In this document: positions 9,028 to 61,072 of the stretch, one piece after another
Layout of the letters: the number at the start of each line of letters is the position of its first letter
How positions within the stretch are numbered: the first letter of the stretch is position 1
Source of the DNA: Flavobacterium sp.
GTDB lineage: Bacteria > Bacteroidota > Bacteroidia > Flavobacteriales > Flavobacteriaceae
Assembly (NCBI GenBank): GCA_018401995.1
Contig: JAGYJR010000010.1
Location: 1 to 64,000, forward strand
Direction: 5' to 3'
DNA length: 64,000 nucleotides
Position numbers and translations under genes: made by a program
Notes under the pieces: model-generated
What the model saw: the letters and a program-made list of their open reading frames with translations, nothing else
Told to the model about the DNA's origin: nothing
Databases searched by the model: none

Positions 9028-10335
9028 ATGAGCAAATTAAATTTAATTATAAAAAGAGAATTTATTGCCAAAGTGCGTAATAAATCATTCATCGTAATGA
9101 CGTTTTTAAGTCCGTTGTTGTTTGTGGGAATGGCCGTTTTAATTGGTTTTTTAGCATCAATGAATAAAGATTCGGTAACCCAAATTGCCATTCATGATGA
9201 AGCTGGTTATTTGATAAACGATTTCAAAAGTGATAAACATACGCAGTATACCAATTTATCCGAAATGCCATTTGCCATTGCCAAAGATACGGCTGGAAAA
9301 AACTACAAAGGCTTACTTTTTATTCCAAAAGTAGCTTCTTTACCAGAATTAGATGGAAAAGTAGAATATATTTCAGATGATAGTCCAAGTATCGAATTTA
9401 TTAGCAATGTAGAACGTGTGATTAATTCCAAAATCACGCAAGAAAATTTAGACGTTCTAGGTTTTGACACCGAAAAAATTGAAAAAGCAAAAGCAAAAAC
9501 TTCCTTGAAATTATCGAAATTTTCAGGTGAAGAGAGCCTAAAAGGCCTAAACGAAATCAAAGTAGCAATTGGCGGTTTCATGGGCTATTTAATCATGATG
9601 TTCATTATTATTTATGGAAATTTTGTAATGCGAAGCGTGATTGAAGAAAAAACCAATCGTATTATCGAAATTATCATTTCATCTGTAAAACCATTTCAAT
9701 TGATGATGGGTAAAATCATCGGAAATTCATTGGCTGGAATTTTACAGTTTATGATTTGGGCAGTCGTTGGCGCATTATTGTTTTTTATTGCTTCTTCGTT
9801 TTTTGGTTTGCAAATGGGCGCATCTTCCGCTGTTTCTCCAGAAATGATGGAACAAGCTCAACAAGCTGCTGGTTTGTCAAAAGTGCAATTGTATATCAAT
9901 GAGATTTTGAATTTACCATTGACATTAATGTTGGTATCATTCGTTATCTTTTTCATTGGTGGTTACTTTTTATATAGCTCGTTGTACGCAGCCATTGGAG
10001 CAGCAGTTGATTCAGAAACTGATTCGCAACAATTTTTATTGCCAATTATAATGCCATTGATGCTTGCTGTTTACATCGGGTTCTTCACTGTAATTAATGA
10101 TCCACACGGAACTGTAGCAACTGTTTTCTCCATTATTCCGTTTACATCACCAATTGTAATGTTAATGCGAATTCCTTTCGGAGTTCCTATTTGGCAACTG
10201 GTTTTATCAATAGTATTATTATTTGCTACATTTGCTTTTGTAGTTTGGTTTGCTTCCAAAATTTATCGCGTAGGTATTTTAATGTACGGCAAAAAACCAA
10301 CTTGGAAGGAATTGTATAAGTGGATGAAATACTAA
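9028..10335 (+). CDS. ABC transporter permease (ABC-2 family)
   Basis: MSKLNLIIKREFIAKVRNKSFIVMTFLSPLLF...IEEKTNRIIEIIISSVKPFQLMMGKI. Confidence 0.92.
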   Translation: MSKLNLIIKREFIAKVRNKSFIVMTFLSPLLFVGMAVLIGFLASMNKDSVTQIAIHDEAGYLINDFKSDKHTQYTNLSEMPFAIAKDTAGKNYKGLLFIPKVASLPELDGKVEYISDDSPSIEFISNVERVINSKITQENLDVLGFDTEKIEKAKAKTSLKLSKFSGEESLKGLNEIKVAIGGFMGYLIMMFIIIYGNFVMRSVIEEKTNRIIEIIISSVKPFQLMMGKIIGNSLAGILQFMIWAVVGALLFFIASSFFGLQMGASSAVSPEMMEQAQQAAGLSKVQLYINEILNLPLTLMLVSFVIFFIGGYFLYSSLYAAIGAAVDSETDSQQFLLPIIMPLMLAVYIGFFTVINDPHGTVATVFSIIPFTSPIVMLMRIPFGVPIWQLVLSIVLLFATFAFVVWFASKIYRVGILMYGKKPTWKELYKWMKY

Positions 10336-10375
10336 CAAAGTGAAAAGTGTAAAGTACAAAGTTTAAAGTAAAGAG
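10334..10375. repeat. heptanucleotide degenerate tandem array (NNNAAAG)6
   Basis: aacaaag tgaaaag tgtaaag tacaaag tttaaag taaagag, read by eye with constant 7-nt phase. Confidence 0.75.
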
Positions 10376-10407
10376 TTCAGAAGTTTTTCTTTTGAACTCT
10401 TTTTTTT
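10370..10407 (+). terminator. intrinsic terminator after ABC permease
   Basis: AAAGAGTTCAgaagtttttctttTGAACTCTTTttttt. Confidence 0.75.
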
Positions 10408-10434
10408 GTAACTTACAATTCAATTTAAAAACAC

Positions 10435-11268
10435 ATGGAAATAATAGAACAAGTAAAAGAAGTTTTAGGGTTTAGTTTAATAAAAACAGAAGATATTAAT
10501 ATTACATTAGGAGCAATAATCGCTTTAGTAATTGCTTTTTTATTAACATCATATGTTTTAAATGTTATAAGAAAGGTTGTTACAAGAAAATTGCCTGAAG
10601 ATGACAAAAATAAGTTTGTCAGTATTTTTCAGTTTATACAATATATTGTATATGTTTTTGTGATTATGTTTACTTTGAAAACTTCTGGAGTAGACGTAAG
10701 TGTTTTGTTAACGGCATCTGCAGCAATTTTCATTGGTTTAGGTTTTGCTCTGCAACAGTTGTTTCAGGATTTAATCTCTGGAGTATTAATTATTCTTGAC
10801 CAATCCCTTCATGTAGGCGATATTATTGAAATTGATGGAAAAGTGTGTCGAGTTGAAAAAATAAGTTTGCGTTCTACCAAAGCCGTTACCAGAAACGATC
10901 GTGTTATGGTGATTCCTAATCACAAGTTTTTAAGCGATATTTTATTCAATTGGACACAAAATAGTTCGGAAATTAGAGAAAACATTACGGTTGGGGTTGC
11001 TTATGGTTCCGATACCCAATTGGTAAAAACCATTTTAGAGAATTGTGCTAAACAGCACTCAGCAGTTTTGAAAAATCGTCCAATAGTTGCATTGTTTCAA
11101 GATTTCGGTGATTCTTCTTTAGATTTTGAATTGTTCTTCTTTATAAATGATGCTTTTACTGTTCCGAAAACTAAAAGTGAAATTCGTTTTGCAATTGACC
11201 AAGAATTTCGTGCCAACAAAGTTAGTATTCCTTTTCCACAACGCGATATTCACATCATTTCAAAGTAA
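10435..11268 (+). CDS. MscS family mechanosensitive ion channel
   Basis: IFIGLGFALQQLFQDLISGVLIILDQSLHVGDIIEIDGKVCRVEKISLRSTKAVTRNDRVMVIPN. Confidence 0.93.
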   Translation: MEIIEQVKEVLGFSLIKTEDINITLGAIIALVIAFLLTSYVLNVIRKVVTRKLPEDDKNKFVSIFQFIQYIVYVFVIMFTLKTSGVDVSVLLTASAAIFIGLGFALQQLFQDLISGVLIILDQSLHVGDIIEIDGKVCRVEKISLRSTKAVTRNDRVMVIPNHKFLSDILFNWTQNSSEIRENITVGVAYGSDTQLVKTILENCAKQHSAVLKNRPIVALFQDFGDSSLDFELFFFINDAFTVPKTKSEIRFAIDQEFRANKVSIPFPQRDIHIISK

Positions 11269-11327
11269 ATTGGTCTGATTCTTGATTTACAAAAAAAGAA
11301 ATTCTATATTTTTGTTAACTTTGCCAA

Positions 11328-11362
11328 TACCAATTACCTGAAACCTATTACCAAATACCAAT
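11328..11362. repeat. heptanucleotide degenerate tandem array (TACCAAT-like)5
   Basis: taccaat tacctga aacctat taccaaa taccaat, ending 5 nt before ATG 11368. Confidence 0.8.
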
Positions 11363-11367
11363 AAAAA

Positions 11368-12531: not shown

Positions 12532-12598
12532 CTAAATCTAAATTTGAAAACAATTAATGTTTTAGATTTTTTAGATTTTTCAATTTTTAGATGATACA

Positions 12599-14309: not shown

Positions 14310-15944
14310 ATGATTACAGTTAACGACATTGCCGTAGAATTTGGCGGAACTACACTTTTTAGCGAAGTTACTTTTGCCATAAATGAAACCGATAAAATTG
14401 CCTTAATGGGTAAAAATGGAGCTGGAAAATCTACACTTTTAAAAATTGTTGCAGGACAAAACAAACCAACTCGCGGAAATATTTCGGCACCAAAAGAAGC
14501 AGTGATTGCCTATTTGCCTCAGCATTTGTTGTCAAATGACAATTGTACGGTTATGGAAGAAACTTCAAAAGCTTTTGCCGATGTTTTAGATATGAAAGCT
14601 GAAATTGAAGAAATCAATGAACAATTGACTATTCGTACGGATTATGAGAGTGATGCTTATATGAAGTTGATTGAAAGGGTTTCGGAACTTTCTGAGAAAT
14701 ATTATGCTATTGAAGAAGTAAATTATGAAGCCGAGGTTGAGAAAGTTTTAAAAGGTTTAGGTTTTGAAAGAGCTGATTTTACTCGTCAAACTTCTGAATT
14801 TTCTGGAGGTTGGAGAATGCGTATTGAATTGGCAAAAATTCTTCTAAAAAAGCCCGATTTGATTTTATTAGATGAGCCAACCAATCACTTGGATATGGAC
14901 AGTATTCAATGGTTGGAAGATTTTTTGGTAAACCAAGCCAAAGCAGTTATGGTAATTTCGCACGATAGAGCTTTCGTAGATAATATTACCAATAGAACTA
15001 TAGAAGTCACAATGGGAAGAATTTACGATTACAAAGCCAAATATTCGCACTATTTAGAACTTCGAAAAGATAGAAGAATACACCAACAAAAAGCATACGA
15101 AGAGCAACAAAAGTTCATTGCCGAAAATCAGGCATTTATTGATCGTTTTAGAGGAACTTTTTCAAAAACAGAATCGGTGCAATCGCGTGTTAAAATGTTA
15201 GAAAAAATTGTTCCAATTGAAGTGGACGAAGTGGACAATTCAGCTTTAAAATTGAAATTTCCACCTTCGGCTCGTTCTGGACAATATCCAGTTATAGTAA
15301 AAGATTTGTGCAAGAGTTATGGTGACAAAGTAATTTTCAAAGATGCCAATATCGTTATCGAACGCGGACAAAAAGTAGCATTCGTAGGAAAAAATGGTGA
15401 AGGAAAATCAACCATGATTAAAGCCATTATGAAAGAAATTCAAATTGATGGTGGAAGCGTTGAAATTGGTCATAATGCGCAAATTGGTTATTTTGCCCAA
15501 AACCAAGCGTCGTTATTAGATGAAAATGCTACTATTTTTGAAACTATTGATAGAATTGCTGTTGGAGATGTTCGTACCCAAATTAAAAACATTCTTGGCG
15601 CATTCATGTTCCAAGGCGACGATATTCAGAAGAAAGTAAAAGTGCTTTCTGGAGGAGAAAAAACGCGTTTGGCGATGATTAAATTGTTGTTAGAACCTGT
15701 GAACTTGTTGATTTTGGACGAACCTTCGAATCACTTGGATATGAAAACCAAAGACATCATCAAAGATGCCTTAAGAGATTTCGACGGCACTTTAATCTTA
15801 GTTTCTCACGACCGTGATTTCTTGGATGGTTTAGCAGAGAAAGTGTTCGAATTTGGTAATAAACGTGTAAAAGAACATTTCGAAGATTTAAAAGGCTTCT
15901 TAGAAATCAAAAAAATGGATTCCTTGAAAGAGATTGAGAAGTAA
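14310..15944 (+). CDS. ABC-F family ATP-binding protein
   Basis: Two ABC cassettes (GKNGAGKST, GKNGEGKST), LILLDEPTNHLDMDSI, no TM segments. Confidence 0.94.
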   Translation: MITVNDIAVEFGGTTLFSEVTFAINETDKIALMGKNGAGKSTLLKIVAGQNKPTRGNISAPKEAVIAYLPQHLLSNDNCTVMEETSKAFADVLDMKAEIEEINEQLTIRTDYESDAYMKLIERVSELSEKYYAIEEVNYEAEVEKVLKGLGFERADFTRQTSEFSGGWRMRIELAKILLKKPDLILLDEPTNHLDMDSIQWLEDFLVNQAKAVMVISHDRAFVDNITNRTIEVTMGRIYDYKAKYSHYLELRKDRRIHQQKAYEEQQKFIAENQAFIDRFRGTFSKTESVQSRVKMLEKIVPIEVDEVDNSALKLKFPPSARSGQYPVIVKDLCKSYGDKVIFKDANIVIERGQKVAFVGKNGEGKSTMIKAIMKEIQIDGGSVEIGHNAQIGYFAQNQASLLDENATIFETIDRIAVGDVRTQIKNILGAFMFQGDDIQKKVKVLSGGEKTRLAMIKLLLEPVNLLILDEPSNHLDMKTKDIIKDALRDFDGTLILVSHDRDFLDGLAEKVFEFGNKRVKEHFEDLKGFLEIKKMDSLKEIEK

Positions 15945-22176: not shown

Positions 22177-23598
22177 ATGACCTTAGCGACCTACACCAAA
22201 GAGTTTTCCTATAACCTTCGATTGGCCTATCCCATAATTTTGGGAATGTTAGGTCATACAGTTGTGGGTATTGTAGATAACATCATGGTTGGGAAATTAG
22301 GTCCAGCGGAATTGGCAGCGGTTTCTTTGGGAAATAGCTTTGTATTTATTGCGATGTCATTAGGAATTGGATTTTCTACAGCAATTACGCCATTAGTTGC
22401 AGAAGCCGATGGAAAAAATGATGTAGAAAAGGGCAGAAGTGCTTTTCACCACGGATTGTATTTATGTACAATTTTAGGAGTTGTACTTTTTGGAATCATT
22501 TACTTTTCAAAGCCATTAATCGCTTATATGGGACAACCAGAACATGTAGTAACATTGGCAAAACCTTATTTGGATATTGTTGCTTTTTCGTTGATTCCCT
22601 TAATTATGTTTCAAGCGTATAAGCAATTTGCCGATGGTATGAGTGAAACCAAATATTCCATGTGGGCAACCATTTTAGCTAATATTGTCAATGTAGTTTT
22701 GAATTATTTGTTGATTTACGGTATTTGGATTTTTCCAGAATTAGGAATTGTTGGTGCAGCCATTGGAACTATCGCTTCTCGTTTTGTGATGTTGGGCTAC
22801 ATGCATTATATGATGAATTTGAAAAAGAAATTTCATCCGTATTTCAAAGGATTTTCATTGAAAGAAATTAAACGCGAGGTAAATCTAACCATCATCCGAT
22901 TAGGAACGCCTTCTGCGATGCAAATGTTTTTTGAAGTGGCACTTTTTACTGGAGCTATTTGGCTTTCGGGTCGATTGGGTACTACTAGTCAGGCGGCAAA
23001 TCAAATTGCTTTGAGTTTAGCTTCATTCACATTTATGTTTGCCATGGGATTGAGTGTAGCGGCGATGATTCGTGTTGGAAATCAAAAAGGTTTGGAAGAT
23101 TATAAAAAACTGCGAATTGTAGCGCTTTCCATTTTTCTATTAGCCACATTTTTAGAGATTCTTTTTGCTCTGTTCTTCGTTTTGTTTCATCAATATTTAC
23201 CCCAACTTTTCGTAAATTTAAGCGATGTTTCGACTTTAGTAGAAAGTCAAGAAGTAATGGCTATTGCTGCTAATTTATTATTGGTTGCAGCAGTATTCCA
23301 AATTTCAGATGGATTACAAGTTGTAGTTTTAGGAGCCTTGAGAGGATTGCAAGATGTAAAAATTCCAATGTACATGACTTTTGTGGCGTATTGGGTAATA
23401 GGATTTCCAATTTCAATCTATTTAGGATTGTATACTGATTTGAAAGCAACAGGAATTTGGTTAGGATTATTAGCTGGATTAACAGCTGCAGCATTATTTT
23501 TGTATATTCGCTTTAATTATTTGACCAAAAAAATGATTCAAGAACAAGAGCAAGAGCAAGAACAAGAGCAAGAACAATTTCAAGTTCAAAAACAATAA
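22177..23598 (+). CDS. MATE family efflux transporter with repeat-encoded (QE)n C-terminus
   Basis: 12 TM-like segments; YNLRLAYPIILGMLGHTVVGIVDNIMVGKLGPAELAAVSLGNS; start at the internal ATG. Confidence 0.93.
   Translation: MTLATYTKEFSYNLRLAYPIILGMLGHTVVGIVDNIMVGKLGPAELAAVSLGNSFVFIAMSLGIGFSTAITPLVAEADGKNDVEKGRSAFHHGLYLCTILGVVLFGIIYFSKPLIAYMGQPEHVVTLAKPYLDIVAFSLIPLIMFQAYKQFADGMSETKYSMWATILANIVNVVLNYLLIYGIWIFPELGIVGAAIGTIASRFVMLGYMHYMMNLKKKFHPYFKGFSLKEIKREVNLTIIRLGTPSAMQMFFEVALFTGAIWLSGRLGTTSQAANQIALSLASFTFMFAMGLSVAAMIRVGNQKGLEDYKKLRIVALSIFLLATFLEILFALFFVLFHQYLPQLFVNLSDVSTLVESQEVMAIAANLLLVAAVFQISDGLQVVVLGALRGLQDVKIPMYMTFVAYWVIGFPISIYLGLYTDLKATGIWLGLLAGLTAAALFLYIRFNYLTKKMIQEQEQEQEQEQEQFQVQKQ
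23539..23598 (+). repeat. hexanucleotide tandem array (CAANNN)10 within the MATE C-terminus, including the stop codon
   Basis: CAAGAA CAAGAG CAAGAG CAAGAA CAAGAG CAAGAA CAATTT CAAGTT CAAAAA CAATAA encodes QEQEQEQEQEQEQFQVQKQ*. Confidence 0.9.
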
Positions 23599-23624
23599 AC
23601 AACAAACCATAAACCACAAACAAA
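23590..23624. repeat. heptanucleotide array (AAACNAN)5
   Basis: aaacaat aaacaac aaaccat aaaccac aaacaaa, 7 nt before ATG 23632. Confidence 0.8.
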
Positions 23625-23631
23625 AAATAAA

Positions 23632-23862
23632 ATGGATTTACCAAAATTTGTAATCGGAGACAATACCGATTTTCCTGATGATATTTTTATTATTCACTTA
23701 GAATTTCCAAGATTCGTAATCAATTTAAAAGATGACGAAGTAGAATTTTTAGAAGACATCGAAGAAGAAGACGAAAAAGAATTAGAATCAGAAATGGAAC
23801 ATTTAATTACCATTGCTGGAGAATTCTACGATAGAGAAATGGAGCGTTACGAGCAGGAATAG
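23632..23862 (+). CDS. small acidic conserved hypothetical protein
   Basis: MDLPKFVIGDNTDFPDDIFIIHLEFPRFVINLKDDEVEFLEDIEEEDEKEL. Confidence 0.8.
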   Translation: MDLPKFVIGDNTDFPDDIFIIHLEFPRFVINLKDDEVEFLEDIEEEDEKELESEMEHLITIAGEFYDREMERYEQE

Positions 23863-29818: not shown

Positions 29819-29870
29819 ATTTTCTATGATTTATTTTAGTAAATATAGTGAATTTTATTCGTTTATTTTG

Positions 29871-29940
29871 TTTCAGGTTTCAAGTCTCAAATTGATTTTT
29901 GTATTTGTTCTTGAGCTTGAACTTGATTTTTGACCTTGTC
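29871..29940. repeat. composite array: (GTTTCAA)3 heptads followed by (NNCTTG)n hexads
   Basis: gtttcag gtttcaa gtctcaa ... ttcttgagcttgaacttgatttttgaccttgtc. Confidence 0.75.
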
Positions 29941-33683: not shown

Positions 33684-33782
33684 CTTTATACTGATTTTAG
33701 TTTTATGCAAAAATAAATTTTTAACTTAAAAAGTCAAGTTTTTTTTGATTTATTTTACTATTATTTTTAAGAACGTGTTTTT

Positions 33783-33814
33783 AGTCGCAGTTTTCAGTCT
33801 CAGTTTTCAGTTAA
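33783..33814. repeat. 13-nt tandem repeat (CAGTTTTCAGTCN)2+
   Basis: agtcgcagttttcagtctcagttttcagtt. Confidence 0.7.
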
Positions 33815-34690: not shown

Positions 34691-34796
34691 TAAAATCTGA
34701 GTTGTTAGAGTTCTATTAAAATTCTAATTTCAACATTTAAAAAATTGCGCCATAAACTTAGAACCTGAAACTTGATACTTGGAATTAAAATTAAAA

Positions 34797-34883
34797 ATAT
34801 AAGTCCTATAAGCTTTTTTTGAAATTTTAATATGGTTATGTTTAAAAGTTCATATAAGTCTTATAAGCTTTTTTTGAAATTTT
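34797..34883. repeat. 32-bp direct repeat pair (34797-34828 and 34852-34883)
   Basis: atataagtcctataagctttttttgaaatttt vs atataagtcttataagctttttttgaaatttt (1 mismatch). Confidence 0.9.
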
Positions 34884-35723: not shown

Positions 35724-36548
35724 CTAAAAACGAATTCTTTCAAACAAATGAGAACTGATGGTTTTATTCGGATTAATTACAAAGTGTTCCTTTTGTTGTT
35801 CGGCTCTAAAAAATACGATGCCCCATTGAAACGTGTCAATTGTAACTGAAACTTTTGAATGATTTTTTATGATTTCCCAAGCTTCTTCCATATCGGCCGA
35901 CCAATGAATGTCATCGAAAATCCATACAGAATCATTGGAAATTGTTGGAAGTAAGGATTCAAAATAATCTAAAGTAGCTTTTTTGGAATGGTTGCCATCG
36001 AAATAGATTAGGTGATGGGTAATGGGTGAAAGGCGAAGGGTTTTAAAATAGCTTGAAAATTCAGTATTAACGAATTCAATATTTTGAAAATTTGAATTTT
36101 GTTCTTGCAATTGAACTTGCGCTTGTTTTTGCGTATTCGGACAACCTTCTAAAGTGATAATTTTAGCTTTGTCATTTCCTAAAGAAAGTGCAGAAGTCGC
36201 TAATCCTAATGAAGTGCCAATTTCTAAAATGCTTTTTGGTTGAAAATAACGAACAATTCTAAAAAGCAATTCCGCATTTTTTGGCGTAATTCCAGCGGTT
36301 TGTGCAATTTTTGAAATCTCTCTAGTATTTGATTTAAAAACTCGTGAACCAGCACCAAAATCAGTTACTTCAATCGTGTTTTTATTTTCTAAAAGTGATT
36401 TTCGATATGATTTTAAATGTTCGTACTCTGGATATTTGGTAGTATCATAAAAACATTTCGTAACCAAATCAAACACAAATGGCGAATGCACTCCATGCTC
36501 GTTTTTTGAATGGAAAAGGAATTTTATGTAAGATTTAATTATAGTCAC
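35724..36548 (-). CDS. class I SAM-dependent O-methyltransferase-like protein, GTG start
   Basis: [59 protein letters not shown]; start codon lies in the 13-nt repeat. Confidence 0.85.
36011..36044. repeat. in-CDS heptanucleotide array (GGTGATG-like)4
   Basis: ggtgatg ggtaatg ggtgaaa ggcgaag gg; encodes [10 protein letters not shown] on the minus strand. Confidence 0.8.
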
Positions 36549-36624
36549 AGTTTTCAGTCACAGTTTTCAGTCACAGTTTTCAGTCACAGTTTTTCCTTTA
36601 TACTGAGACTGAGACTGCAAACTA
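36543..36624. repeat. 13-nt tandem array (AGTCACAGTTTTC)4 followed by opposed ACTGAG/ACTGCAAACTAG units
   Basis: agtcacagttttc x3 + agtcacagttttt ... actgagactgagactgcaaactag. Confidence 0.9.
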
Positions 36625-40532: not shown

Positions 40533-41657
40533 ATGCAAATATCCGTAATCATTCTCAATTACAATGTCCGCTATTTTTTAGAGCAATGTGTTTTCAGTGT
40601 TCAAAAAGCGTTGAAAGGTATTGATGGAGAAATTATTGTGATTGATAATGCTTCTTCAGATGATAGTTGTGAAATGATGAAAACCAAATTCCCGCATATA
40701 AAACTCATTGAAAATGCAGCAAATTCAGGTTTTCCAAAAGGAAATAACATCGGTGTCGCTCAAGCAAAAGGTGAACACATTTGCATTTTAAATCCCGATA
40801 CTGTGGTTGCGGAAGATACTTTTACCAAAATTTTAAACTCGCAACTCATAACTCATAACTCGCAACTTGGAATAATCGGTTGTAAACTAATCGACGGTGC
40901 GGGTAATTTTCTTCCCGAAAGTAAACGTGGCGTTCCAACTCCTTGGGTAGCTTTTACTAAGATTTTCGGATTGTATAAAATTTCAAATTATTTCGGGAAA
41001 TATTACGCGCAACATTTATCTGAAAACGAATCTGGGAAAGTGGATATTTTGGTGGGGGCTTTTATGGTTATGAAGCGCGAATTATATCTCGAAGTAGGTG
41101 GTTTTGATGAAAATTGCTTTATGTATTCCGATGATATCGATTTGAGTTATTTGGTTTTGAAAACTGGAAAATCGAATTATTACTTTCATGAAACTTCTGT
41201 AATTCATTATAAAGGAGAAAGTACGGTTCGCGATGGAACGTATATGAAACGTTTTCGTGAAGCGATGCAGTTTTTCTATAAAAAACACTTCAAGAAATCA
41301 TGGCTTTTTGATGTGATGATGCAAGTGGGAAGTTTCGTTTTTAGTCTTTTGAAGAAAAATCAGCAGAAGAATGAAGTCAGAATTATTGATGAATATGTCG
41401 TTTTTTCAAGAGAAAATTTAGAGTTAAATCTATCAAAAAAAGCAACTTATTTGTCTGATTTTAATCAATTTGTAGGTCAGTCTCAAAAAAATCTTGAAAT
41501 AATATTTGATACTACTACTTTTAGTTTTGCTGAAATTATTACTTTTATGCAGTTAAATAAGAGTAAAAATCTAAGTTTTAAGAATTATATTTCGAGTTCG
41601 AATTACTTAATTGGAAGTAATAATTCGAACGATAGAGGACAAATAACTTTATTGTAA
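40533..41657 (+). CDS. GT2 family glycosyltransferase
   Basis: MQISVIILNYNVRYFLEQCVFSVQKAL...IIVIDNASSDDSCEMM; GGFDENCFMYSDDIDLSYL. Confidence 0.93.
   Translation: MQISVIILNYNVRYFLEQCVFSVQKALKGIDGEIIVIDNASSDDSCEMMKTKFPHIKLIENAANSGFPKGNNIGVAQAKGEHICILNPDTVVAEDTFTKILNSQLITHNSQLGIIGCKLIDGAGNFLPESKRGVPTPWVAFTKIFGLYKISNYFGKYYAQHLSENESGKVDILVGAFMVMKRELYLEVGGFDENCFMYSDDIDLSYLVLKTGKSNYYFHETSVIHYKGESTVRDGTYMKRFREAMQFFYKKHFKKSWLFDVMMQVGSFVFSLLKKNQQKNEVRIIDEYVVFSRENLELNLSKKATYLSDFNQFVGQSQKNLEIIFDTTTFSFAEIITFMQLNKSKNLSFKNYISSSNYLIGSNNSNDRGQITLL
40835..40869 (+). repeat. in-CDS heptanucleotide array (AACTCNN-like)5
   Basis: aaactcg caactca taactca taactcg caacttg; encodes NSQLITHNSQLG. Confidence 0.85.
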
Positions 41658-43122: not shown

Positions 43123-43893
43123 ATGGAATTAAAATTAACACGCCCAATCTGCTTTTTTGACCTTGAAACTACTGGAATTGATGTTGCTAGAGACCGAATT
43201 GTAGAAATCTCAATATTTAAAGTATATCCCAACGGAAATAAAGAAAGTAAAACTTGGTTGGTTAATCCGACGATTCCCATTCCGCCTCAAACTACGGCGG
43301 TGCATGGAATTACTGATGAAAAAGTAGCCAATGAACCCACATTCAAAGAATTGGCAACGCAAGTTCATAATATGATTAAAGATTCTGATTTGGCTGGATT
43401 TAATTCGGACCGATTTGATATTCCGCTTTTGGCAGAAGAATTATTACGTGCTGAGGTTGATTTTGATATGAAAAACCGAGTTTCTGTCGATGTTCAAACG
43501 ATTTTTCATAAAATGGAAGAACGTACTTTAAGTGCGGCTTACAAATTCTATTGCGGACAAAGTTTAGAAAATGCGCATAGTGCGGAAGCCGATACAATGG
43601 CTACTTATGAAATTCTAAAAGCACAATTAGATCGTTACGAGAATTTAGAAAATGATATGAAATCATTAGCTGAATTTACAACACGTAAAAAGTCAGTTGA
43701 TTTCGCTGGATTTATTGCATTAAATAATGAAGGAAAAGAGATTTTTACCTTCGGAAAACACAAAGGCGCTCTGGTAGACGATGTTTTTGATAAAGAACCG
43801 GGTTATTTTGGTTGGATCCAAAACGCCGATTTTCCATTGTATACCAAAAAAGTACTTACAGCAATTAAATTGAGAAAGTTAAATACTAAATAA
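43123..43893 (+). CDS. 3'-5' exonuclease (DNA Pol III epsilon-like DnaQ family)
   Basis: ICFFDLETTGIDVARDRIVEISIFKV; AHSAEADTMATYEIL. Confidence 0.92.
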   Translation: MELKLTRPICFFDLETTGIDVARDRIVEISIFKVYPNGNKESKTWLVNPTIPIPPQTTAVHGITDEKVANEPTFKELATQVHNMIKDSDLAGFNSDRFDIPLLAEELLRAEVDFDMKNRVSVDVQTIFHKMEERTLSAAYKFYCGQSLENAHSAEADTMATYEILKAQLDRYENLENDMKSLAEFTTRKKSVDFAGFIALNNEGKEIFTFGKHKGALVDDVFDKEPGYFGWIQNADFPLYTKKVLTAIKLRKLNTK

Positions 43894-43956
43894 GGTTATA
43901 GGTAATTGGTAATGGGTTATAGGTTTTGCCCATCACCAATCATCCATCACCCATCA
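43894..43956. repeat. two-armed heptanucleotide array (GGTNATN)5(CCCATCA)4
   Basis: ggttata ggtaatt ggtaatg ggttata ggttttg | cccatca ccaatca tccatca cccatca; starts right after the stop codon, ends 11 nt before ATG 43968. Confidence 0.92.
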
Positions 43957-43967: not shown

Positions 43968-44579
43968 ATGAAAATAATCTGCATAGGGCGAAATTACGCC
44001 GACCATATTACTGAATTAAACAACGAAAGACCGTCGGAACCTGTTATTTTTTTAAAGCCAGAAACCGCTGTGGTTTTGAAGAAATTTCCATTTGTAATTC
44101 CTGAATTTAGCCAAGATGTGCACCATGAAGTGGAGGTTTTGGTTAAAATTAATAAAGTGGGGAAGTATATCGAAACCAAATTTGCTCATAAATATTACGA
44201 TGAAATTGGTCTAGGAATTGATTTTACCGCTCGCGATGTTCAAAGTCGTTTGAAAGAAAAGGGTTTGCCATGGGAAAAAGCAAAAGCATTTGACGGTTCA
44301 GCGATTATTAGTGACTTTTTACCGAAAAAAGATTTTTCTTCCATGGAAAACATTAATTTTGAGTTAACAAACAATGGTCAAAAAGTTCAAAGTGGCAATA
44401 CGAATTTAATGCTTTGGAATATTGATGAGATTATTGCTTTTGTTTCCCAATATTTTACGCTTAAAAAAGGTGATATTATTTTCACCGGAACACCAAAAGG
44501 AGTTGCAGCAGTAAAAGAAGGCGATCTTTTAGAAGGTTTTTTGGAAGGAAAATCAATGTTTAAAGTTAAAGTGAAATAA
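43968..44579 (+). CDS. fumarylacetoacetate hydrolase family protein
   Basis: MKIICIGRNYADHITELNNERPSEPVIFLKPETA; DFTARDVQ; GDIIFTGTPKGVA. Confidence 0.95.
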   Translation: MKIICIGRNYADHITELNNERPSEPVIFLKPETAVVLKKFPFVIPEFSQDVHHEVEVLVKINKVGKYIETKFAHKYYDEIGLGIDFTARDVQSRLKEKGLPWEKAKAFDGSAIISDFLPKKDFSSMENINFELTNNGQKVQSGNTNLMLWNIDEIIAFVSQYFTLKKGDIIFTGTPKGVAAVKEGDLLEGFLEGKSMFKVKVK

Positions 44580-50585: not shown

Positions 50586-51400
50586 TTATTCTGTAATCGT
50601 TCTTGCTACTCTAAATCCGTAAAATTCGTGTGTTTTATTTGGTGGAGTTGAAATTCTATTAGCTGGTCTTAAGTAATTTACTTGGCTATCCCAAGAACCG
50701 CCTCTAACCGTTCTTCTTTCTCCCATTTCTGGTCCTTTTGGATTATCCCCTTTTTCAATTTTGTAGTAATCTTTGTTGTACCAATCCCAACACCATTCCC
50801 AAACATTACCACTCATATCGTATAAGCCTAATTCGTTTGGTAATTTTGTTCCTACAGTATGAGGAGAATTTTTACTAATCGCTTTATGCCAAGCTACTTC
50901 ATTAGCGTTATTACCACCGCTAAATTTATAACCTTTTGATTTTACACCACCTTTTGCAGCGAATTCCCATTCTGCTTCTGTAGGTAATCTATAGCCGTTT
51001 GCTTTAAAATTACAAACATAGTTTGGACCTTGTTTACTATAAACCGGTTGAAGTTTTTCTTTTTTACTTAACCAGTTACAATAAGATAGCTTCTTCCTGC
51101 TATTCCATTAATTGATAATTATCTTGCCATCCCCACTCCAGGTTTTAGGCATTTAATTTGTTAGTTTTAGTGTATTGTTTCCATTCCCAAACAGTAACTT
51201 CGAACTTACTAATTTCAAAGGTTTTTATTGTTACATCGTGTTCTTTTGTTCTGTCATTGTCAGCAGTTTCTACCGCTGTCTTTGAACCCATTTTGTAAGT
51301 ACCACTTCAACGCGGAACCATACGATTCATTTGTAAAGTATTAAAGCGCTATGAAATAATACTCAAAGTAGTTACTACTAATAATAGCAATTTTCTTCAT
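50586..51400 (-). pseudogene. SUMF1/EgtB/PvdO-family (formylglycine-generating-enzyme-like) protein, 3' part intact, 5' part indel-ridden
   Basis: Clean frame 50586 to about 51065 (DMSGNVWEWCWDWYNKDYYKI...RTVRGGSWDSQVNYLRPANRISTPP...GFRVARTITE); upstream part aligns to 54231-54581 with many indels. Confidence 0.85.
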
Positions 51401-51479
51401 AATGATTAAGTTTTGCTAAAATTTGGTGCAAAGATAATTATTTTTTAACATTTTATTATTTTTTGTGAATTTTATAAAA

Positions 51480-53130
51480 TAAATTCTTTTTAAGAATAAT
51501 GAAACTGAATGTGTTTTGTCGAATATTTGGGTATTTGTCGATTTTTATTGTTTGATAAATGTGAAAATTTGCGAAAATGGTAATGTCTCTTGTTTTATTT
51601 TTCTAATAATTCATCTGTATAATTTCTATTGCAATCTCAGAAAAGTTCATTTGACGTTCTTGTAACTATTGTTTGGAAATAATTCATTTTGGATTAAAAT
51701 AATTCTTTTCCAATTGTTCTTAAGTTTTCTTTTCAGCTTTTAACAATCTTTTCTAAATTGTCTAAACCTTTAGTTGCTTTATTTCTGAGCTTTTACTGCA
51801 CCAATAAAAGATTTTATCTGTGTCTGCTGTAATTTTATAGAGGTCCTGAATTGTGTTTTAAGTAATTCCTTTGTTTGGAAAATCAATTTCAAAAGTAGAT
51901 AATTCTTTAGTTTTTTTTTATCGAGTAATTCGTTTTGTTTTCAAGAACAGATCGCTCCATTGCAAAACCAAGTTTGTTTAATTTTTGCTCTTGTTTTCGG
52001 AGTAAATGACTACCGAATTTCAATAATAACATTGGGAAGGAAATTGCATTCGCTTCAAAGTTACTTCATCAGCCACAAGCTAATTCTCCGCCACCACCGA
52101 TATAACACAAATTTGGTAAAATCACTTCTTGATATAACGCGAAGAATTACATTAGACTAAAATTTTGTGATTTTTATCTAATTCTGTGAGTATTTCACTT
52201 TCTGAAAAAGCTAAGTTTTGAATTATTTACTTTGTACAGCCCATTTTCAAAAACAATACGTCTTCAAATTATCTGGAATATAAAATAAATTGATTTCTCT
52301 TGGGTTTACTGAACTTCATAATTATTTTCTGTCAAAATAGCATTGGTTTTGTTAACCAATTCAAAAGAAGTTTGCTTTAGTAATTGTCTTTTAAAAAGGA
52401 ATAAACAGTTTTTTTGGGTTAACATCGTCACCATCAAGGATTACTAAACCTTCATTTTTGAAAATTCGTTTGCTAAAATCGGGTTGCATCAGCTAAATTT
52501 GGATGATTTAAATAGGTATTTTGAAATACCTTTAAGCGCTTTGCTATTATTTCAATTCAAAATCTTTATCAATTCTATGAACAGTCTCAGTCCTGAAGTA
52601 TTTAATTCACCAATGGGACCATTACTTTCCTTTTCCATTGACTTTTTCCTTAAATTTAAAAAAAAGTTAATTTCATCAAAATCAAGGATCTTCAGTTGCC
52701 ATCCAATAAACAGACAAAATTATGCTCTGATGTTGTTTTTAATCTCTACAAAGGTTAATTACTGAACAATTTTGTAAAATAAAATACAAAGGTCCAGTGA
52801 ATAAATTTAATTGATGTCCAGTAGTGATTGTAAAGGTTTTAGCCTCTTTAAAAGTTGAATATTAGTAGAAGTTAAGCCTGAAATTTCAAAATTCTTATAC
52901 TGAAGTTCTAAAGAGTTTACAAAACTTTCTATTTTCAATTAGGAAAATTTTATTTTTCTCCAACTGTAATTTAAAGTTTTCAATTGTTGGAAATCGGCTG
53001 TATAAAGACTTAATTCAGATTTTTCATCTAAATAGTCCACACAAGATTAGGAAAAATATCCAGATTTTGATAAGTCACACAGTCACTTGGCATATTAGCA
53101 ATTATTTTCTGCTAAAATACTAAAAACTTT
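51480..53130 (-). pseudogene. indel-ridden second copy of bshC
   Basis: Collinear with 54733-56331; no long ORF; many homopolymer-length differences. Confidence 0.85.
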
Positions 53131-53179
53131 GTTTACACTGCCTTTAATAAAGGGTTAGGATTTGATTATGTTTATCTTA

Positions 53180-53990
53180 TTAAACTAAAATGACTTTATA
53201 TTCTTTCCATTTTCCTGATTACAACAAACCAATAATCCATTGAAGGTGAATCAATATTGTTAAATTTTCCATCCCAACCCATTGAATTTGGGTAAAATTG
53301 AAAAGGAATTTACTGTATCGATCAAAAAATTGACCTTAGATTTGGTCTGTTCTCTGAAAATTTGATTTTCCAAAATCATTATAACTATCACCGTTTGAGT
53401 GAAGAATTTTGGATACATCAATAAATAGATGTCTTCAGATGAAATTCCACATCCATTTTTTATTCTAACATAAACGGTATATTCGCCATTTTCTAATCCG
53501 TAAAAGTATTGTTGTCTTGAAAATCAATCCTGCTTAAAGAATATTCATAGTTGCCAGTTATTAGGAACCTAGTAAAATGAAATCGTATTTTCATTTTGAG
53601 TCCAACCAGAAGTTAAGGATTTCAGAAATGCTTCCAATGTTCGAGTTTACAACGGTAAAGTTTTGGTTGATGAACATGTAGTGGTTCCATGATTTTTTGA
53701 ACGGTTACTGAGTAATTTCGGTTGTGAAACAGTAATTGAGGAACTTACTTCATTTGTTGACCATAAATAAGCATCATGTCCACTTCTGGCATTTATTGTT
53801 ATTGTTTCGCCTTCGCAGATTGGTGCTAATATCATTTATATTCAAAATGGTTTACTTACTAACTGTAATTCTAATGTTACAATTTGGAACAAGTGTTTGG
53901 CGATTCACCTGAACGTAAAATAGATTATTTCCACAGATAAATTGTAATTGGAACTATTTGCACTTCATCTGAGACTAATTGGTTTTAAAT
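53180..53990 (-). pseudogene. indel-ridden fragment of a T9SS type B / gliding-motility C-terminal domain protein
   Basis: Minus-strand pieces APICEGETITINARSGHDAYLWSTNEVSSSITVSQP and MGWDGKFNNIDSPSMDYWFVV, matching PKD-like and type B CTD motifs in broken frames. Confidence 0.7.
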
Positions 53991-54581: not shown

Positions 54582-54732
54582 AATGATTAAGCTATTAAAA
54601 ATTTGGTGCAAAGATAATTATTTTTTAACATTTTTATGTTTTTTTGTTAATTTTATAAAATAAATTCTCTTTTTTTAAGAATAATGAAACCAAATGTGTT
54701 TTTTGTCGAATATTTAGGTATTTCGTCGATTT

Positions 54733-56439: not shown

Positions 56440-58647
56440 TTGAAAGACATCCTTCTCATCACACCGCCTTTTACGCAATTGAATACGCCGTATCCAGCAA
56501 CGGCTTATTTGAAAGGTTTTTTGAATACCAAAAACATTTCGGCATTCCAAATGGATTTAGGTATCGAAGTGATTTTAGAACTATTTTCCAAAAAAGGTTT
56601 AGCCGAGATTTTTTGTCACATCGAACGAAGTCGAGATACTTCAACCATCACCCATCACCCATCACCAAATATCCAAAGAATTTATTCCCTCAAAGACGAT
56701 TACATCAAAACTATTGATTCCACAATCGCTTTTCTCCAAGGGAAAAATCCATCTTTAGCGCGCCAAATTTGTTCTGGAAATTTTTTGCCCGAAGCCTCTC
56801 GTTTTGATCAATTAGACGATATGGAATTTGCCTTTGGTTCCATAGGAATGCAAGACAAAGCCAAACACTTAGCTACTTTATATTTAGAAGATTTATCGGA
56901 TTTTATTGTAGAATGTGTCGATGAGAATTTCGGATTTAGTCGCTATGCAGAACGCTTGGGACGAAGCGCTAATTCTTTTGATGAATTATACAATCATTTA
57001 CAAAACGAATTAACTTTTATAGACAAAATCACAATCAAAATTCTAAAAGAGAGAATAGAGAAAGTTGAACCAAAATTAATCTGTTTTTCTGTTCCATTTC
57101 CAGGAAATTTATACAGCGCTTTCCGAAGTGCCCAATTCATAAAAGCTAATTTTCCGAATATAAAAACAGCAATGGGCGGCGGTTTCCCAAATACCGAACT
57201 CCGTGACTTAAAAGACCAACGCGTTTTTGAATTCTTCGATTTTATTACACTAGATGATGGAGAATTACCTGTTGAATTAGTTTATGATTTTGTCACATCG
57301 AGCGAAGTCGAGATGCCTTTAAAAAGGACTTTTCTTCTAGAAAACAATCAAGTCATCTACAAAAACAACTCCACTCGCCAGGATTACAAACAAAGTGAAG
57401 TTGGAACTCCAGATTATTCTGATTTATTGCTCGATAAATATATTTCTGTAATCGAAGTTGCTAATCCAATGCACAGTTTGTGGAGTGATGGTCGTTGGAA
57501 CAAACTTACCATGGCGCATGGCTGTTATTGGGGGAAATGTACATTTTGTGATATTTCTCTCGATTATATTAAGTTATACGAACCCATCGCTGCCAAAATT
57601 TTGGTCGACCGAATGGAAGAATTAATCGCTCAAACAGGCGAAAACGGTTTCCATTTTGTAGATGAAGCAGCACCGCCAGCTTTGATGCGCGAAGTAGCTT
57701 TGGAAATTATCAAACGAAAATTAGTAGTCACTTGGTGGACCAACATTCGTTTTGAGAAAAGTTTTACAGCTGATTTATGTTTGTTATTAAAAGAATCGGG
57801 TTGTATTGCCGTTTCTGGTGGATTAGAAGTGGCTTCGGACCGACTTTTAGAGCTAATCAAAAAAGGAGTAACCGTTGAACAAGTAGCGCAAGTAACTAGA
57901 AATTTTACAGAATCTGGAATTATGGTTCACGCATATTTGATGTACGGTTATCCAACACAAACGATTCAAGAAACCGTTGATAGTTTGGAAATGGTGCGTC
58001 AATTGTTTGAATTGGGTGTTTTACAAAGTGGTTTTTGGCATCAATTTGCTATGACAGCGCATTCGCCAGTGGGAATGTTTCCCGAAGAATTCGGCGTAAT
58101 TCCAGAACAAAATGAAATCACTTTTGCTAATAATGACATCAATTTTAAAGACAAAAGCGGAATTAATCATGATAAGTTCAGTTTCGGATTAAAAAAATCG
58201 CTTTTCAATTATATGCACGGCATTTGTTTCGATTACGATTTACAAGAATGGTTTGATTTTAAAATTCCAAAAACCAAAATTCCTTCGGATTACATTTACA
58301 ATTGTCTTCAAAACAAACAAAATTTTACAACCAAACCAAATGCGAAAATCATTTGGCTAGGAGCAATGCCTCAAACCGAAATATATACCAAATCCAAAAA
58401 AGGAAATTCTTGGGAAATGATGAGACTATCGTTTCACAACAAAACTCAAAACTTTGAAATTGCTGTCAATGCCAATGAAGGAAAATGGTTGGTTGAAATG
58501 TTGGAGAAAGTTTCCGTTTATTCCAATGATAAAATAACTTTTTCTCAGTTAAAAGCCGATTTCGAACAAGATTTGGAAGATTTTGAGTTGTTTTGGTATT
58601 CCAAACCAATGCTGACTTTAAGAAGTAGTATGTTATTGGTATTGTAA
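56440..58647 (+). CDS. B12-binding domain radical SAM protein
   Basis: N-term KDILLITPPFTQLNTPYPATAYLKGFL; MAHGCYWGKCTFCDISLDY radical-SAM CxxxxxxCxxC-like cluster. Confidence 0.92.
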   Translation: MKDILLITPPFTQLNTPYPATAYLKGFLNTKNISAFQMDLGIEVILELFSKKGLAEIFCHIERSRDTSTITHHPSPNIQRIYSLKDDYIKTIDSTIAFLQGKNPSLARQICSGNFLPEASRFDQLDDMEFAFGSIGMQDKAKHLATLYLEDLSDFIVECVDENFGFSRYAERLGRSANSFDELYNHLQNELTFIDKITIKILKERIEKVEPKLICFSVPFPGNLYSAFRSAQFIKANFPNIKTAMGGGFPNTELRDLKDQRVFEFFDFITLDDGELPVELVYDFVTSSEVEMPLKRTFLLENNQVIYKNNSTRQDYKQSEVGTPDYSDLLLDKYISVIEVANPMHSLWSDGRWNKLTMAHGCYWGKCTFCDISLDYIKLYEPIAAKILVDRMEELIAQTGENGFHFVDEAAPPALMREVALEIIKRKLVVTWWTNIRFEKSFTADLCLLLKESGCIAVSGGLEVASDRLLELIKKGVTVEQVAQVTRNFTESGIMVHAYLMYGYPTQTIQETVDSLEMVRQLFELGVLQSGFWHQFAMTAHSPVGMFPEEFGVIPEQNEITFANNDINFKDKSGINHDKFSFGLKKSLFNYMHGICFDYDLQEWFDFKIPKTKIPSDYIYNCLQNKQNFTTKPNAKIIWLGAMPQTEIYTKSKKGNSWEMMRLSFHNKTQNFEIAVNANEGKWLVEMLEKVSVYSNDKITFSQLKADFEQDLEDFELFWYSKPMLTLRSSMLLVL
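56614..56675 (+). repeat. in-CDS composite: CGAGCGAAGTCG element (copy 3) + heptads (TCACCCA)n
   Basis: tgtcacatcgaacgaagtcgagatact + tcaacca tcaccca tcaccca tcaccaa atatcca; encodes CHIERSRDTSTITHHPSPNIQ. Confidence 0.88.
57291..57317 (+). repeat. in-CDS CGAGCGAAGTCG element (copy 4)
   Basis: tgtcacatcgagcgaagtcgagatgcc; encodes VTSSEVEMP. Confidence 0.88.
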
Positions 58648-58706
58648 TTTTATTTTAGAATTTACAAAATTATCAAACAGAACAAAAAAGAGTATTCGGT
58701 TATTTG

Positions 58707-58875
58707 GTTTCAAGTTTCAAGTTTTTTTGAATTTAATATCGAAGCTAAAGTATTAGTATTTTTATTGAACTCAGTTGAGTCTGATATAACTGTGACTGAA
58801 AACTGTGACTGCGACTGAAAACTACAAACATTGGAATTTGATTTTTGAACTTGAATTTGTCCTTGACCTTGTTCT
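58707..58875. repeat. composite array: GTTTCAA heptads, ACTGTGACTGAAA 13-mers, CTTG hexads
   Basis: gtttcaa gtttcaa gtttttt ... actgtgactgaaaactgtgactgcgactgaaaactac ... tttttgaacttgaatttgtccttgaccttgttc. Confidence 0.8.
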
Positions 58876-58976
58876 TTATTTTCCCCAGCTAACTATATTT
58901 ATTTTCCAAATTTATCACGATTTTCCTCTATTAAAACAGTTCCTTTTTGTAAATTTACGGACTTAAAAAAACGAAT

Positions 58977-59462: not shown

Positions 59463-59466
59463 AAAA

Positions 59467-59546
59467 AGAGGCAAGATGCAAGAAAAAAGAAGTTAGAATT
59501 TCTCTCTCTTCTTTCTGTAAAGCGGTCTTTCTTCTTTCATTTTAAT
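59467..59546. repeat. opposed heptad arrays: (AGANNNN)5 then TCTTTCT-type units
   Basis: agaggca agatgca agaaaaa agaagtt agaattt ... ctctctcttctttctgtaaagcggtctttcttctttca; precedes ATG 59550. Confidence 0.65.
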
Positions 59547-59549
59547 ATT

Positions 59550-60998
59550 ATGAAAGAAATTAAAAAAATATTAGTTGCCAATCGTGGGGAAATTGCCATT
59601 AGAGTAATGAAAACTGCGAAAAAAATGGGAATCAGAACGGTTGCGGTGTATTCTTCAGCCGATAGAAATGCATTACACGTTAAATATGCTGATGAAGCGG
59701 TTTTAATTGGTGAAGCAGCATCCAATCAATCGTATTTGCGCGGTGATAAAATCATTGAAGTTTGTAAAGAACTTGGAGTTGATGCCGTTCATCCAGGTTA
59801 TGGATTTTTAAGTGAAAATTCATCTTTTGCAGAAGCTTGTGAAAAAAATAACATCATTTTCATCGGACCAAAATCAAAAGCGATTGAAATGATGGGAAGT
59901 AAGTTAGCAGCAAAAGACGCTGTTAAAGCCTACGGAATTCCAATGGTTCCTGGAACTGAAGATGCTATTACGGATATAGAAGCAGCAAAGCAAATTGCGA
60001 CAGAAATTGGTTTCCCAATTCTAATCAAAGCTTCAGCTGGAGGTGGTGGAAAAGGAATGCGAGTGGTGGAGAAAGCAGAAGATTTTGTTTCACAAATGGA
60101 TAGAGCGATTTCGGAAGCTACCAATGCTTTTGGAGATGGTTCGGTTTTCATTGAAAAATATGTAACCAAACCACGTCACATCGAAATTCAAGTTATGGCG
60201 GATAGTCATGGCAATATTGTGTATGTTTTCGAAAGAGAATGTAGTATTCAACGTCGTCATCAGAAAGTAGTTGAGGAAGCGCCATCGGCAGTTTTGACTC
60301 CAGAGAAACGTAAAGAAATGGGTGAAGCAGCGATAAAAGTAGCAAAAGCTTGTGATTATTTAGGTGCTGGAACTGTGGAATTCTTGATTGACGAACATCA
60401 CAATTTCTATTTTTTGGAAATGAATACGCGTTTGCAAGTGGAACACCCAGTTTCAGAATTAATTTCTGGTTTGGATTTGGTAGAATTTCAAATTCGTGTG
60501 GCTCGTGGTGAAGTGTTGCCAATCAAACAAGAAGACTTACAAATCAAAGGTCACGCTATGGAACTTCGTGTATATGCCGAAGATCCAATGAATGATTTCT
60601 TGCCAAATGTTGGTAATTTAACCAAATACCAATTACCTGTTGGTGAAGGAATTCGAGTTGATAACGGAATCGAAGAAGGAATGGATGTGCCTATTTACTA
60701 TGATCCAATGCTTTCTAAATTAATTACTTATGGTGAAACAAGAGAAGAAGCTATCGAATTAATGATCAAAGCTATTGATAATTATTTGGTTGAAGGCGTT
60801 CAAACCACATTGCCATTCGGAAAATTTGTAATGGAGCACGAAGCGTTTCGTTCGGGAGATTTTGATACTGGTTTTGTGAAAGCCTATTACGATGCTGAAA
60901 AACTAAAATCAAAATTAGATACCGAAGCTGAAATTGCAGCTATGCTAGCGTTTCAACAATATGTAGAGGATCAAAAAGTACTAAGATTACCAAACTAA
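59550..60998 (+). CDS. accC: biotin carboxylase (acyl-CoA carboxylase alpha subunit)
   Basis: KKILVANRGEIAIRVMKTAKKMGIRTVAVYSSADRNALHVKYADEAV; ASAGGGGKGMRVV. Confidence 0.97.
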   Translation: MKEIKKILVANRGEIAIRVMKTAKKMGIRTVAVYSSADRNALHVKYADEAVLIGEAASNQSYLRGDKIIEVCKELGVDAVHPGYGFLSENSSFAEACEKNNIIFIGPKSKAIEMMGSKLAAKDAVKAYGIPMVPGTEDAITDIEAAKQIATEIGFPILIKASAGGGGKGMRVVEKAEDFVSQMDRAISEATNAFGDGSVFIEKYVTKPRHIEIQVMADSHGNIVYVFERECSIQRRHQKVVEEAPSAVLTPEKRKEMGEAAIKVAKACDYLGAGTVEFLIDEHHNFYFLEMNTRLQVEHPVSELISGLDLVEFQIRVARGEVLPIKQEDLQIKGHAMELRVYAEDPMNDFLPNVGNLTKYQLPVGEGIRVDNGIEEGMDVPIYYDPMLSKLITYGETREEAIELMIKAIDNYLVEGVQTTLPFGKFVMEHEAFRSGDFDTGFVKAYYDAEKLKSKLDTEAEIAAMLAFQQYVEDQKVLRLPN

Positions 60999-61072
60999 AG
61001 TATTAAGATTTAAGAATTAAGTAGTAAGACAAAAACTTAACTTTTAACTTGAAACCTTAAACTTGAAACAAA
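60996..61072. repeat. heptanucleotide array, 11 units (TTAAGAN then AAACTTG types)
   Basis: taaagta ttaagat ttaagaa ttaagta gtaagac aaaaact taacttt taacttg aaacctt aaacttg aaacaaa; 7 nt before ATG 61080. Confidence 0.9.

Follow-up and report, generated by a model that had tools for sequence, protein, structure and literature searches.

The window analysed here is the whole 64,000-nt stretch (positions 1–64,000 of contig JAGYJR010000010.1, assembly GCA_018401995.1) of a Flavobacterium metagenome-assembled genome (MAG; 2.37 Mb, 99 contigs, 82% completeness). Its genes, which are our own calls from open reading frames and hexamer scores and not curated annotation, include those of an ABC-2 transporter, an ABC ATPase, a methyltransferase, a glycosyltransferase, an exonuclease, an FAA hydrolase and a radical-SAM protein, as well as accB, accC and a carboxyltransferase gene. 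Between or within these genes lie short degenerate tandem arrays with a period of 7 nt (heptad arrays; Table 1). Such arrays, and less often arrays with a period of 8 nt (octad arrays), occupy tolerant slots, which are mainly the spacers that separate a stop codon from the start codon after it, together with a few protein loops of variable sequence. The slot and its period persist across species while the repeated word changes.

To score periodicity, each base was compared with the one lying k nt further along, at every lag k, with +1 given for a match and −1 for a mismatch; dinucleotide-preserving shuffles served as controls, with intergenic and coding DNA kept separate. Genome-wide counts refer to 864 kb of the MAG, taken in stretches. 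In intergenic DNA, 85 lag-7 segments scored at least 11 versus 9.0 in the shuffles, 62 versus 3.0 scored at least 13, and 40 versus 0.6 scored at least 15. Lag 7 was by far the strongest of the lags: at a score of at least 15 the counts were 0 versus 0.4 at lag 5, 7 versus 0.6 at lag 6, 7 versus 0.4 at lag 8 and 3 versus 0.4 at lag 9, while the multiples of 7 were raised too (24 versus 0.6 at lag 14; 11 versus 0.4 at lag 21). The coding excess was small (9 versus 1 at the same score, in 742 kb). In the intergenic DNA of the window itself, seven lag-7 segments scored at least 13 versus 0.25 in the shuffles. The shuffled controls exclude pure chance as the source of the arrays. A single dispersed repeat family is excluded as well, since 51 arrays fall into about 20 word groups, and an Rfam scan of the whole window at the gathering score gave zero matches. 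The GTTTNTN heptad pattern had 33 matches at period 7 and none at period 8 in the host genome; across the phylum it was found in 13 of 148 genomes at period 7, versus 6 at period 8, and the array density seen here is therefore lineage-specific.

The initial annotation of this DNA had listed 13 sites with a 7-nt phase and had proposed the comparison with neighbouring lags and shuffles, split by intergenic and coding DNA, in which the excess was found. Eleven of the 13 sites reach a lag-7 score of at least 11 and are real by this measure. The other two, given as 11328 and 29871, score 9 and 10; since about 3.8 segments with a score of at least 9 are expected in the shuffled intergenic DNA of the window, they prove nothing alone. 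The three arrays placed in coding sequence do lie in genes, which carry Pfam domains (methyltransferase, glycosyltransferase, radical SAM).

Table 1. Heptad arrays of the window, with lag-7 scores (strong, at least 13; borderline, 11).
Array	Position	Strand	Score	Context
GTNAAAG words	10337–10381	+	18	Directly after the stop of the ABC-2 transporter gene (9028–10335); then a T-rich arm, in part complementary to it, as far as about 10415
TACCAAT (weak)	11336–11361	+	9	Not significant alone; lies 7 nt before an ATG (11368)
CTTCCAA	14272–14296	+	14	Precedes the ABC ATPase gene (ATG at 14310)
AAACNAN	23590–23632	+	22	Spans stop codon to next start; 6-nt CAAGAA array just upstream
GTTTCAG/GTTTCAA (weak)	29870–29890	+	10	Not significant alone; CTTGAA-type words downstream to about 29930
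AAACTTG	34755–34798	+	11	Between minus-strand genes
CCCATTA/CCCATCA	36011–36040	−	11 (borderline)	In the methyltransferase gene (35724–36491); encodes the loop SPITHHL
AACTCAT	40836–40872	+	strong (at least 13)	In the glycosyltransferase gene (40533–41657); encodes NSQLITHNSQL
Inverted pair GGTNATN / CCCATCA	43893–43956	.	23	Fills the space between the exonuclease gene (43123–43893) and the FAA-hydrolase gene (43968–44579)
TCACCCA	56641–56666	+	strong (at least 13)	In the radical-SAM gene (56440–58647), beside the dispersed repeat GTCACATCGAACGAAGTCGAGA
GTTTCAA (short)	58707–58724	+	11	Upstream of accB
Left arm AAGAGGC/AAGATGC/AAGAAAA	59466–59501	+	13	accB–accC spacer; right arm CTTTCTTCTTTC, to about 59540
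Left arm ATTAAGA	60998–61028	+	14	accC–carboxyltransferase spacer
Right arm TTAACTT / TTGAAAC	61037–61069 (scored segment 61037–61088)	+	14	accC–carboxyltransferase spacer; stops about 10 nt short of the ATG at 61080

The spacer arrays have a characteristic layout. Usually they form an inverted pair of arms that spans the distance from stop codon to next start codon, beginning at or a few bases past the stop and finishing a few bases before the start (medians of 2 and 7 nt at the spacer of the array at 43893–43956, below the 43894 spacer). Units of the left arm carry G (GTTTNTN, GTTTCAR, GTNAAAA, GTTAGAA, GGTNATN) and units of the right arm carry C (AAACNAN, YTGAAAC, TTTTNAC, CCCATNA). Of the arrays close to a gene edge, 42 have a G strand that runs away from the gene and 13 have the reverse orientation (p = 1e-4), with outward-G ratios of 8:3 in convergent and 2:0 in divergent spacers; the corresponding ratio in relatives was 60:7, with many cases from one operon and hence not independent. 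In the AAACNAN class of the host genome the two free positions are A, C or T, with one G among 144 on the strand reading toward starts. The initial annotation lacked the inverted-arm layout and this polarity, as well as the octad sister class and the coding-loop slots described below.

The 43894 spacer was compared in 70 congeners, including the window, of which 61 had a spacer of usable length; here, as in the other ortholog sets, species have common ancestry and their counts are not independent trials. A lag-7 array was present in 35 of the 61 and a lag-8 array in 17, versus about 0.7 each in shuffles, while lags 5, 9 and 10 gave 0–1. At least ten words were found among the congeners, including GGTNATN, AGTGATT, AGTGTTC, GTTTGTA, CTTCCAT, CCCAAAA, TTATCTG and the octad CTTAGNAN. 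Within a species, the two arms shared 6-mers at a level of 0.184, versus 0.045 with this locus in other species, which equals the shuffled level. Tags were shared between the arms of octads (0.33 versus 0.19, p = 0.004), and such sharing was not significant for the AGTGTTC class. When the word classes are placed on a tree inferred from the flanking genes by maximum likelihood, they must have changed 37 times, where the minimum is 11 and shuffled labels need 48; the number is approximate, since the classes were set by simple patterns. Even sister species can differ in period (L249 heptad, L268 octad). Whole units have also expanded, as in the near-perfect CTTCCAT x7 of L239 and GTTTAAA x6 of L035, and strict alignment of alleles revealed a modest excess of 7–8 nt gaps. 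The view of the initial annotation that the period is kept and the sequence is not thus holds between species at orthologous slots, with the addition of the 8-nt period.

The accB–accC and accC–carboxyltransferase spacers were compared in 80 congeners and near relatives. In 32 of the 80 genomes, accB and accC are separated by no more than 12 nt. The remaining spaces contain GTTTCAA, ATTAAGA, GAAGCAA or GAAAATA heptads, period-8 words of the CACAAAG type, or other repeats, and these always sit between the same stop and start.

The paired arms raise the question of secondary structure. In most congeners, the predicted fold of the 43894 spacer is much more stable than that of shuffled sequence (mean z −4.0). 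Its hairpin energy was −26.1 kcal/mol for the real sequences, −26.3 when units were permuted within arms, and −12.9 after dinucleotide shuffling. Since shuffling the unit order leaves the energy unchanged, the arms have a word in common and are not base-by-base copies of each other. Neither strict selection for pairing nor simple in-register palindrome correction fits this result well; out-of-register copying is permitted by it. Strict quasi-palindrome correction, or strict selection on base pairs, is excluded as an explanation by the same permutation. A Rho-independent terminator, with a GC-rich stem and a T run, was not seen at the 43894 spacer, whose tail is A-rich, as judged by reading and not by a terminator scan. 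If the arrays were functional intercistronic RNA hairpins, any stem-forming word would serve for attenuation, processing or mRNA protection, and the heptad pattern would be a cheap way of building a stem. Such a role fits the strong folding, the within-species match of the arms and the close spacing of arrays to stop and ATG. We nevertheless consider it improbable: stability does not depend on which units face each other, array-bearing spacers of the host genome have only a small folding advantage over array-free ones (z −2.6 versus −2.1), many orthologous spacers are empty, as at accB–accC, and the coding loops are left unexplained.

Within proteins, the slots lie in stretches whose variability suggests surface loops. 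In the methyltransferase loop, a lag-7 array was present in 20 of 39 orthologs, where 0.20 were expected from dinucleotide shuffles and 0.25 from codon shuffles, and none of the 39 had arrays at lags 5, 6, 8, 9 or 10. The words differ (CCCATNA, ACTGAAC, CTTTCGA, AACTCAC, ACCCAAG and others), although the compared stretch is 28 residues long in 30 of the 39 orthologs. Because one unit gained or lost breaks the frame, change in this loop must proceed by overwriting or by multiples of three units. In the radical-SAM loop, 24 of 36 orthologs had a heptad array, against an average of 0.8% per window elsewhere in the protein, and at least four words occur there (CCCATCA, AACTCCC, GTTTCAA, AAACTAC). 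Heptad arrays were found in 6 of 44 orthologs in the glycosyltransferase loop, with words including ACTGAAC and AAATTCC; the rest carry non-heptad dispersed repeats or plain sequence.

Several further observations concern these loops. Nearly the same AACTCGCAACTCATAACTCA array as at window 40836–40872 lies in the glycosyltransferase loop of a distant congener, L348 (G071), while most other orthologs examined lack it, which suggests recombination or repeated arrival. The dispersed repeat ATCGA(G/A)CGAAGTCGAGA occurs at window 56600–56640 and at L006 1684–2496, with 10 exact pattern copies in the 864 kb, and it is also translated in frame as CHIERSRD within the radical-SAM protein. Palindromic dispersed repeats GTCACCTCGAGAGCAGTCGAGA, CCCCCTTTGGGGATTAGGGG and CCCGATAGCTATCGGG (L286, L298, L347, L355, L338, L342) fill loops that bear heptads in other species.

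The coding loops also bear on two other explanations. Under the first, the arrays would be the product of ordinary neutral slippage of simple sequence repeats (SSRs), and the heptamer SSR excess already known from bacteria, for which PMC4692102 cites a polymerase-footprint explanation, would account for them. Steps of a single unit cannot give the constant protein length of the coding slots, and the matched opposite arms, the switch between 7 and 8 nt at one site in sister species, and the polarity would go unexplained; we give this explanation the faintest probability. Under the second, the arrays would be binding sites, spaced by 7–8 nt, for a nucleic-acid-binding protein (e.g. of the RNA recognition motif, cold-shock or S1 type), whose specificity the words would follow. 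A fixed core with free positions, as in CTTAGNAN and AAACNAN, and the near absence of G from the free positions of the latter are in keeping with this, and proteins of the S1, Csp or CsrA type have been proposed for TAACTGA heptads (MacGregor 2015, PMC4679880). It is still a quite improbable explanation, since many words coexist in a single genome, tree neighbours switch words with no visible regulatory link, and the coding-loop arrays have no fixed position relative to any signal.

Words are also shared between loci. Among 53 arrays, 25 pairs have identical words versus about 6.5 expected from composition (one mosaic cluster excluded). Over all loci, 33 spacer pairs have a common 17-nt stretch versus 8.6 after unit-order shuffling, and 15 versus 6.1 with the mosaic cluster removed. 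A 21-nt stretch of the 10337–10381 array was found again elsewhere in the genome, at a locus not linked to it, and the CCCATNA word occurs at three window sites (36011, 43894 and 56641). CTTCCAN has 47 matches in congener G068, whose 43894 spacer uses this word, and the octad CTTAGNAN pattern is matched 14–106 times per genome in one clade and is absent from the clade of the window. A vocabulary common to the six studied slots was not significant (0.48 versus 0.40 for letter-shuffled words), so we make no claim that every word is a copy. Dispersal occurs yet leaves most of the word diversity unexplained. The words had been called locus-specific, which is correct only in part: identical words are about fourfold above the composition expectation and multi-unit stretches are common to loci.

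Such sharing favours an alternative in which a few mobile or recombining families of dispersed miniature palindromic repeats, similar to repetitive extragenic palindromes (REP) and REPINs, miniature inverted-repeat transposable elements or Rickettsia palindromic elements, replace one another. The 7-nt period would then be the mere internal structure of families that land in spacers and tolerated loops. Besides the identical words, the common stretches and the many copies of the octad in one clade, it accommodates the large spacers, which are mosaics of periods 6, 7 and 13 and longer recurrent blocks with modules recurring at 85–95% identity, and the fact that slots also take the non-heptad repeats GTCACCTCGAGAGCAGTCGAGA, CCCCCTTTGGGGATTAGGGG and CATTGCGAGGTACGAAGCAATCTC. 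Yet defined ends, target duplication and a linked transposase were not found. PF01797 (Y1 transposase) gave five matches in the genome, four of them over the cut-off; a heptad array flanks one and a T-rich one flanks another, so that one of the five loci adjoins a convincing heptad array. Protein length in the methyltransferase slot is mostly constant, unlike after insertion, and words across slots are barely above the letter-shuffled level. We judge this alternative rather unlikely. Linkage to RAYTs (REP-associated tyrosine transposases) was not evident around the Y1-transposase matches.

A rhythm that stays fixed while the words are swapped may reflect a mode of DNA copying by which spacing is determined and letters are not. 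Our tentative reading is that a process linked to replication or repair may set a distance of 7, sometimes 8, nt without setting the sequence, continually overwriting unconstrained DNA in spacers and protein loops with tandem or fold-back copies of its neighbourhood; slots and period would thereby be inherited as words are replaced. In such a process, the growing strand would, during replication or repair, move to a template position lying a short and nearly constant 7–8 nt away. A direct switch would copy the adjacent unit and then return, overwriting the sequence with little net change in length, whereas an uncompensated switch would gain or lose whole units, and a fold-back switch would put the word into the opposite arm. 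Over many rounds, unconstrained DNA would become arrays while the words drift. Occasional copying of multi-unit stretches to other loci would build up the vocabulary of a lineage, and selection would confine arrays to harmless sites and favour G-poor words before starts. The arrays need have no function in this scheme, and the resulting intercistronic hairpins may still affect transcripts. To the whole account, template switching over about 7–8 nt together with dispersal of arrays, we would give a little less than an even chance.

Inside single arms, units one step apart have an identity of 0.74, which declines with distance to 0.56 for units five steps apart; such a drop is what stepwise copying predicts, and part of this drop is explained by the selection of arrays on their lag-7 score. 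This last point weighs against template switching, as do five others. The multi-unit stretches common to unlinked loci call for a second process. Whole-unit gaps of 7–8 nt between aligned alleles exist and are not dominant. Exact in-register copying between arms is absent, as the unit-order shuffle at the 43894 spacer indicates (−26.1 versus −26.3). The data give no reason for a 7–8 nt step in Flavobacterium. Finally, the origin by slippage or template switching that the initial annotation had put forward is compatible with the data, and the switching is read from the comparison of species, no switching event having been observed directly.

Cyanobacterial short tandemly repeated repetitive sequences (STRRs; Calothrix, Anabaena/Nostoc) are short tandem heptanucleotides with few fixed words per organism. 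The Flavobacterium arrays belong to the same broad kind, intergenic heptanucleotide tandem repeats, in that a 7-nt period above chance occurs mainly in intergenic DNA and at many loci. They resemble STRRs in being short, tandem, mostly intergenic and present at many loci (in part from citations in PMC4692102), and differ in their many degenerate words, opposite arms and word switching at orthologous sites. With about 20 groups among 51 arrays, and 25 identical-word pairs among 53, they fall outside a narrow definition by few fixed words per genome. In Xanthomonas and Nostoc, GGGAATC and GGGGA(C/T)T repeats show heptamer over-representation, intergenic location, outward-G polarity and inverted copies, according to Rehm et al. 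(2015, PMC4692102), which also cites an earlier proposal of a polymerase-footprint reason for heptamers. The same placement of the G strand, on the upstream non-coding or downstream coding strand, was found here (42 versus 13). Most of our units (GTTTNTN, GTNAAAA, GTTTCAA) have no run of at least three G, as judged by reading and not by a quadruplex scan; the Xanthomonas and Nostoc repeats, by contrast, have one word of G-quadruplex type, are under-represented in divergent spacers and have no coding-loop slots, and the accessible part of PMC4692102 reports no change of word or period.

TAACTGA heptads precede starts in Beggiatoaceae, cyanobacteria and five Bacteroidetes, and heptamer arrays of other kinds are noted for Gramella forsetii and Elizabethkingia (MacGregor 2015, PMC4679880). 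Like our arrays, they are heptamer direct repeats just before starts, reversed near stops and absent from the same spacers of close relatives (PMC4679880). They consist of a single exact word with related words rare, while the Flavobacterium word families vary and switch, and TAACTGA is absent from the word lists of the Flavobacterium arrays. The initial annotation knew of no established equivalent in Flavobacterium; as a kind, heptamer repeats have been described in cyanobacteria, Xanthomonas, Nostoc and Beggiatoaceae and mentioned for Flavobacteriia, among them Gramella forsetii (PMC4679880, PMC4692102).

The arrays share with REP/REPIN sequences, which occur with RAYT transposases, the dispersed palindromic units in spacers, but they keep the period and not the sequence, and RAYT linkage is not shown. 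The GTAG/CGTC signature of REP palindromes was not noticed in the printed arrays, with no scan aimed at it. Rickettsia palindromic elements are present in frame inside proteins; by comparison, the Flavobacterium arrays lie in frame in three loops, with mostly constant length (28 amino acids in 30/39) and unrelated words. A RepRanger table lists thousands of palindromic REP candidates in two Flavobacterium genomes, which may include array arms, and the accessible part of that source describes no heptad or octad period (PMC12306157). The open-access literature that we searched, which omits most subscription journals, held no dedicated description of heptad arrays in Flavobacterium, and none of period-keeping, word-changing slots, of the 8-nt class or of coding-loop slots. 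Intergenic heptad repeats are thus already known, and the slots that switch word and period seem to be a new form of them.

For decades, heptamer repeats have been reported from bacteria with no account of why the unit is seven. Orthologous slots, some of them frame-locked within proteins, separate the period from the sequence and make an origin in seven-base steps testable in culturable Flavobacterium. Short-period composition in spacers and variable loops can mimic motifs or homologous elements while being neither, and this mimicry affects repeat annotation, the finding of regulatory motifs and the alignment of protein loops in the Flavobacterium group.

A few other repeats were observed. 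Perfect or near-perfect 13-nt tandem repeats, AGTCACAGTTTTC x3.9 and GTTTTCAGTCGCA x2.7, lie at window 36543–36593 and 33777–33811; the 13-nt word is a composite of 6 + 7, and it also turns up at the 43894 site of L256 and in several of the genome's spacers. Spacers at L005 2638–3389 and 6810–7782 hold several tandem copies of a composite element of about 220 nt, with the 13-mer, GTTTNTN heptads, CTTGTT hexads and a GGAACGCGAATGATAC block as its parts. Window 51292–53984 comprises 2.7 kb without a convincing gene or Rfam match, part of which is 87% identical to window 54582–54732.

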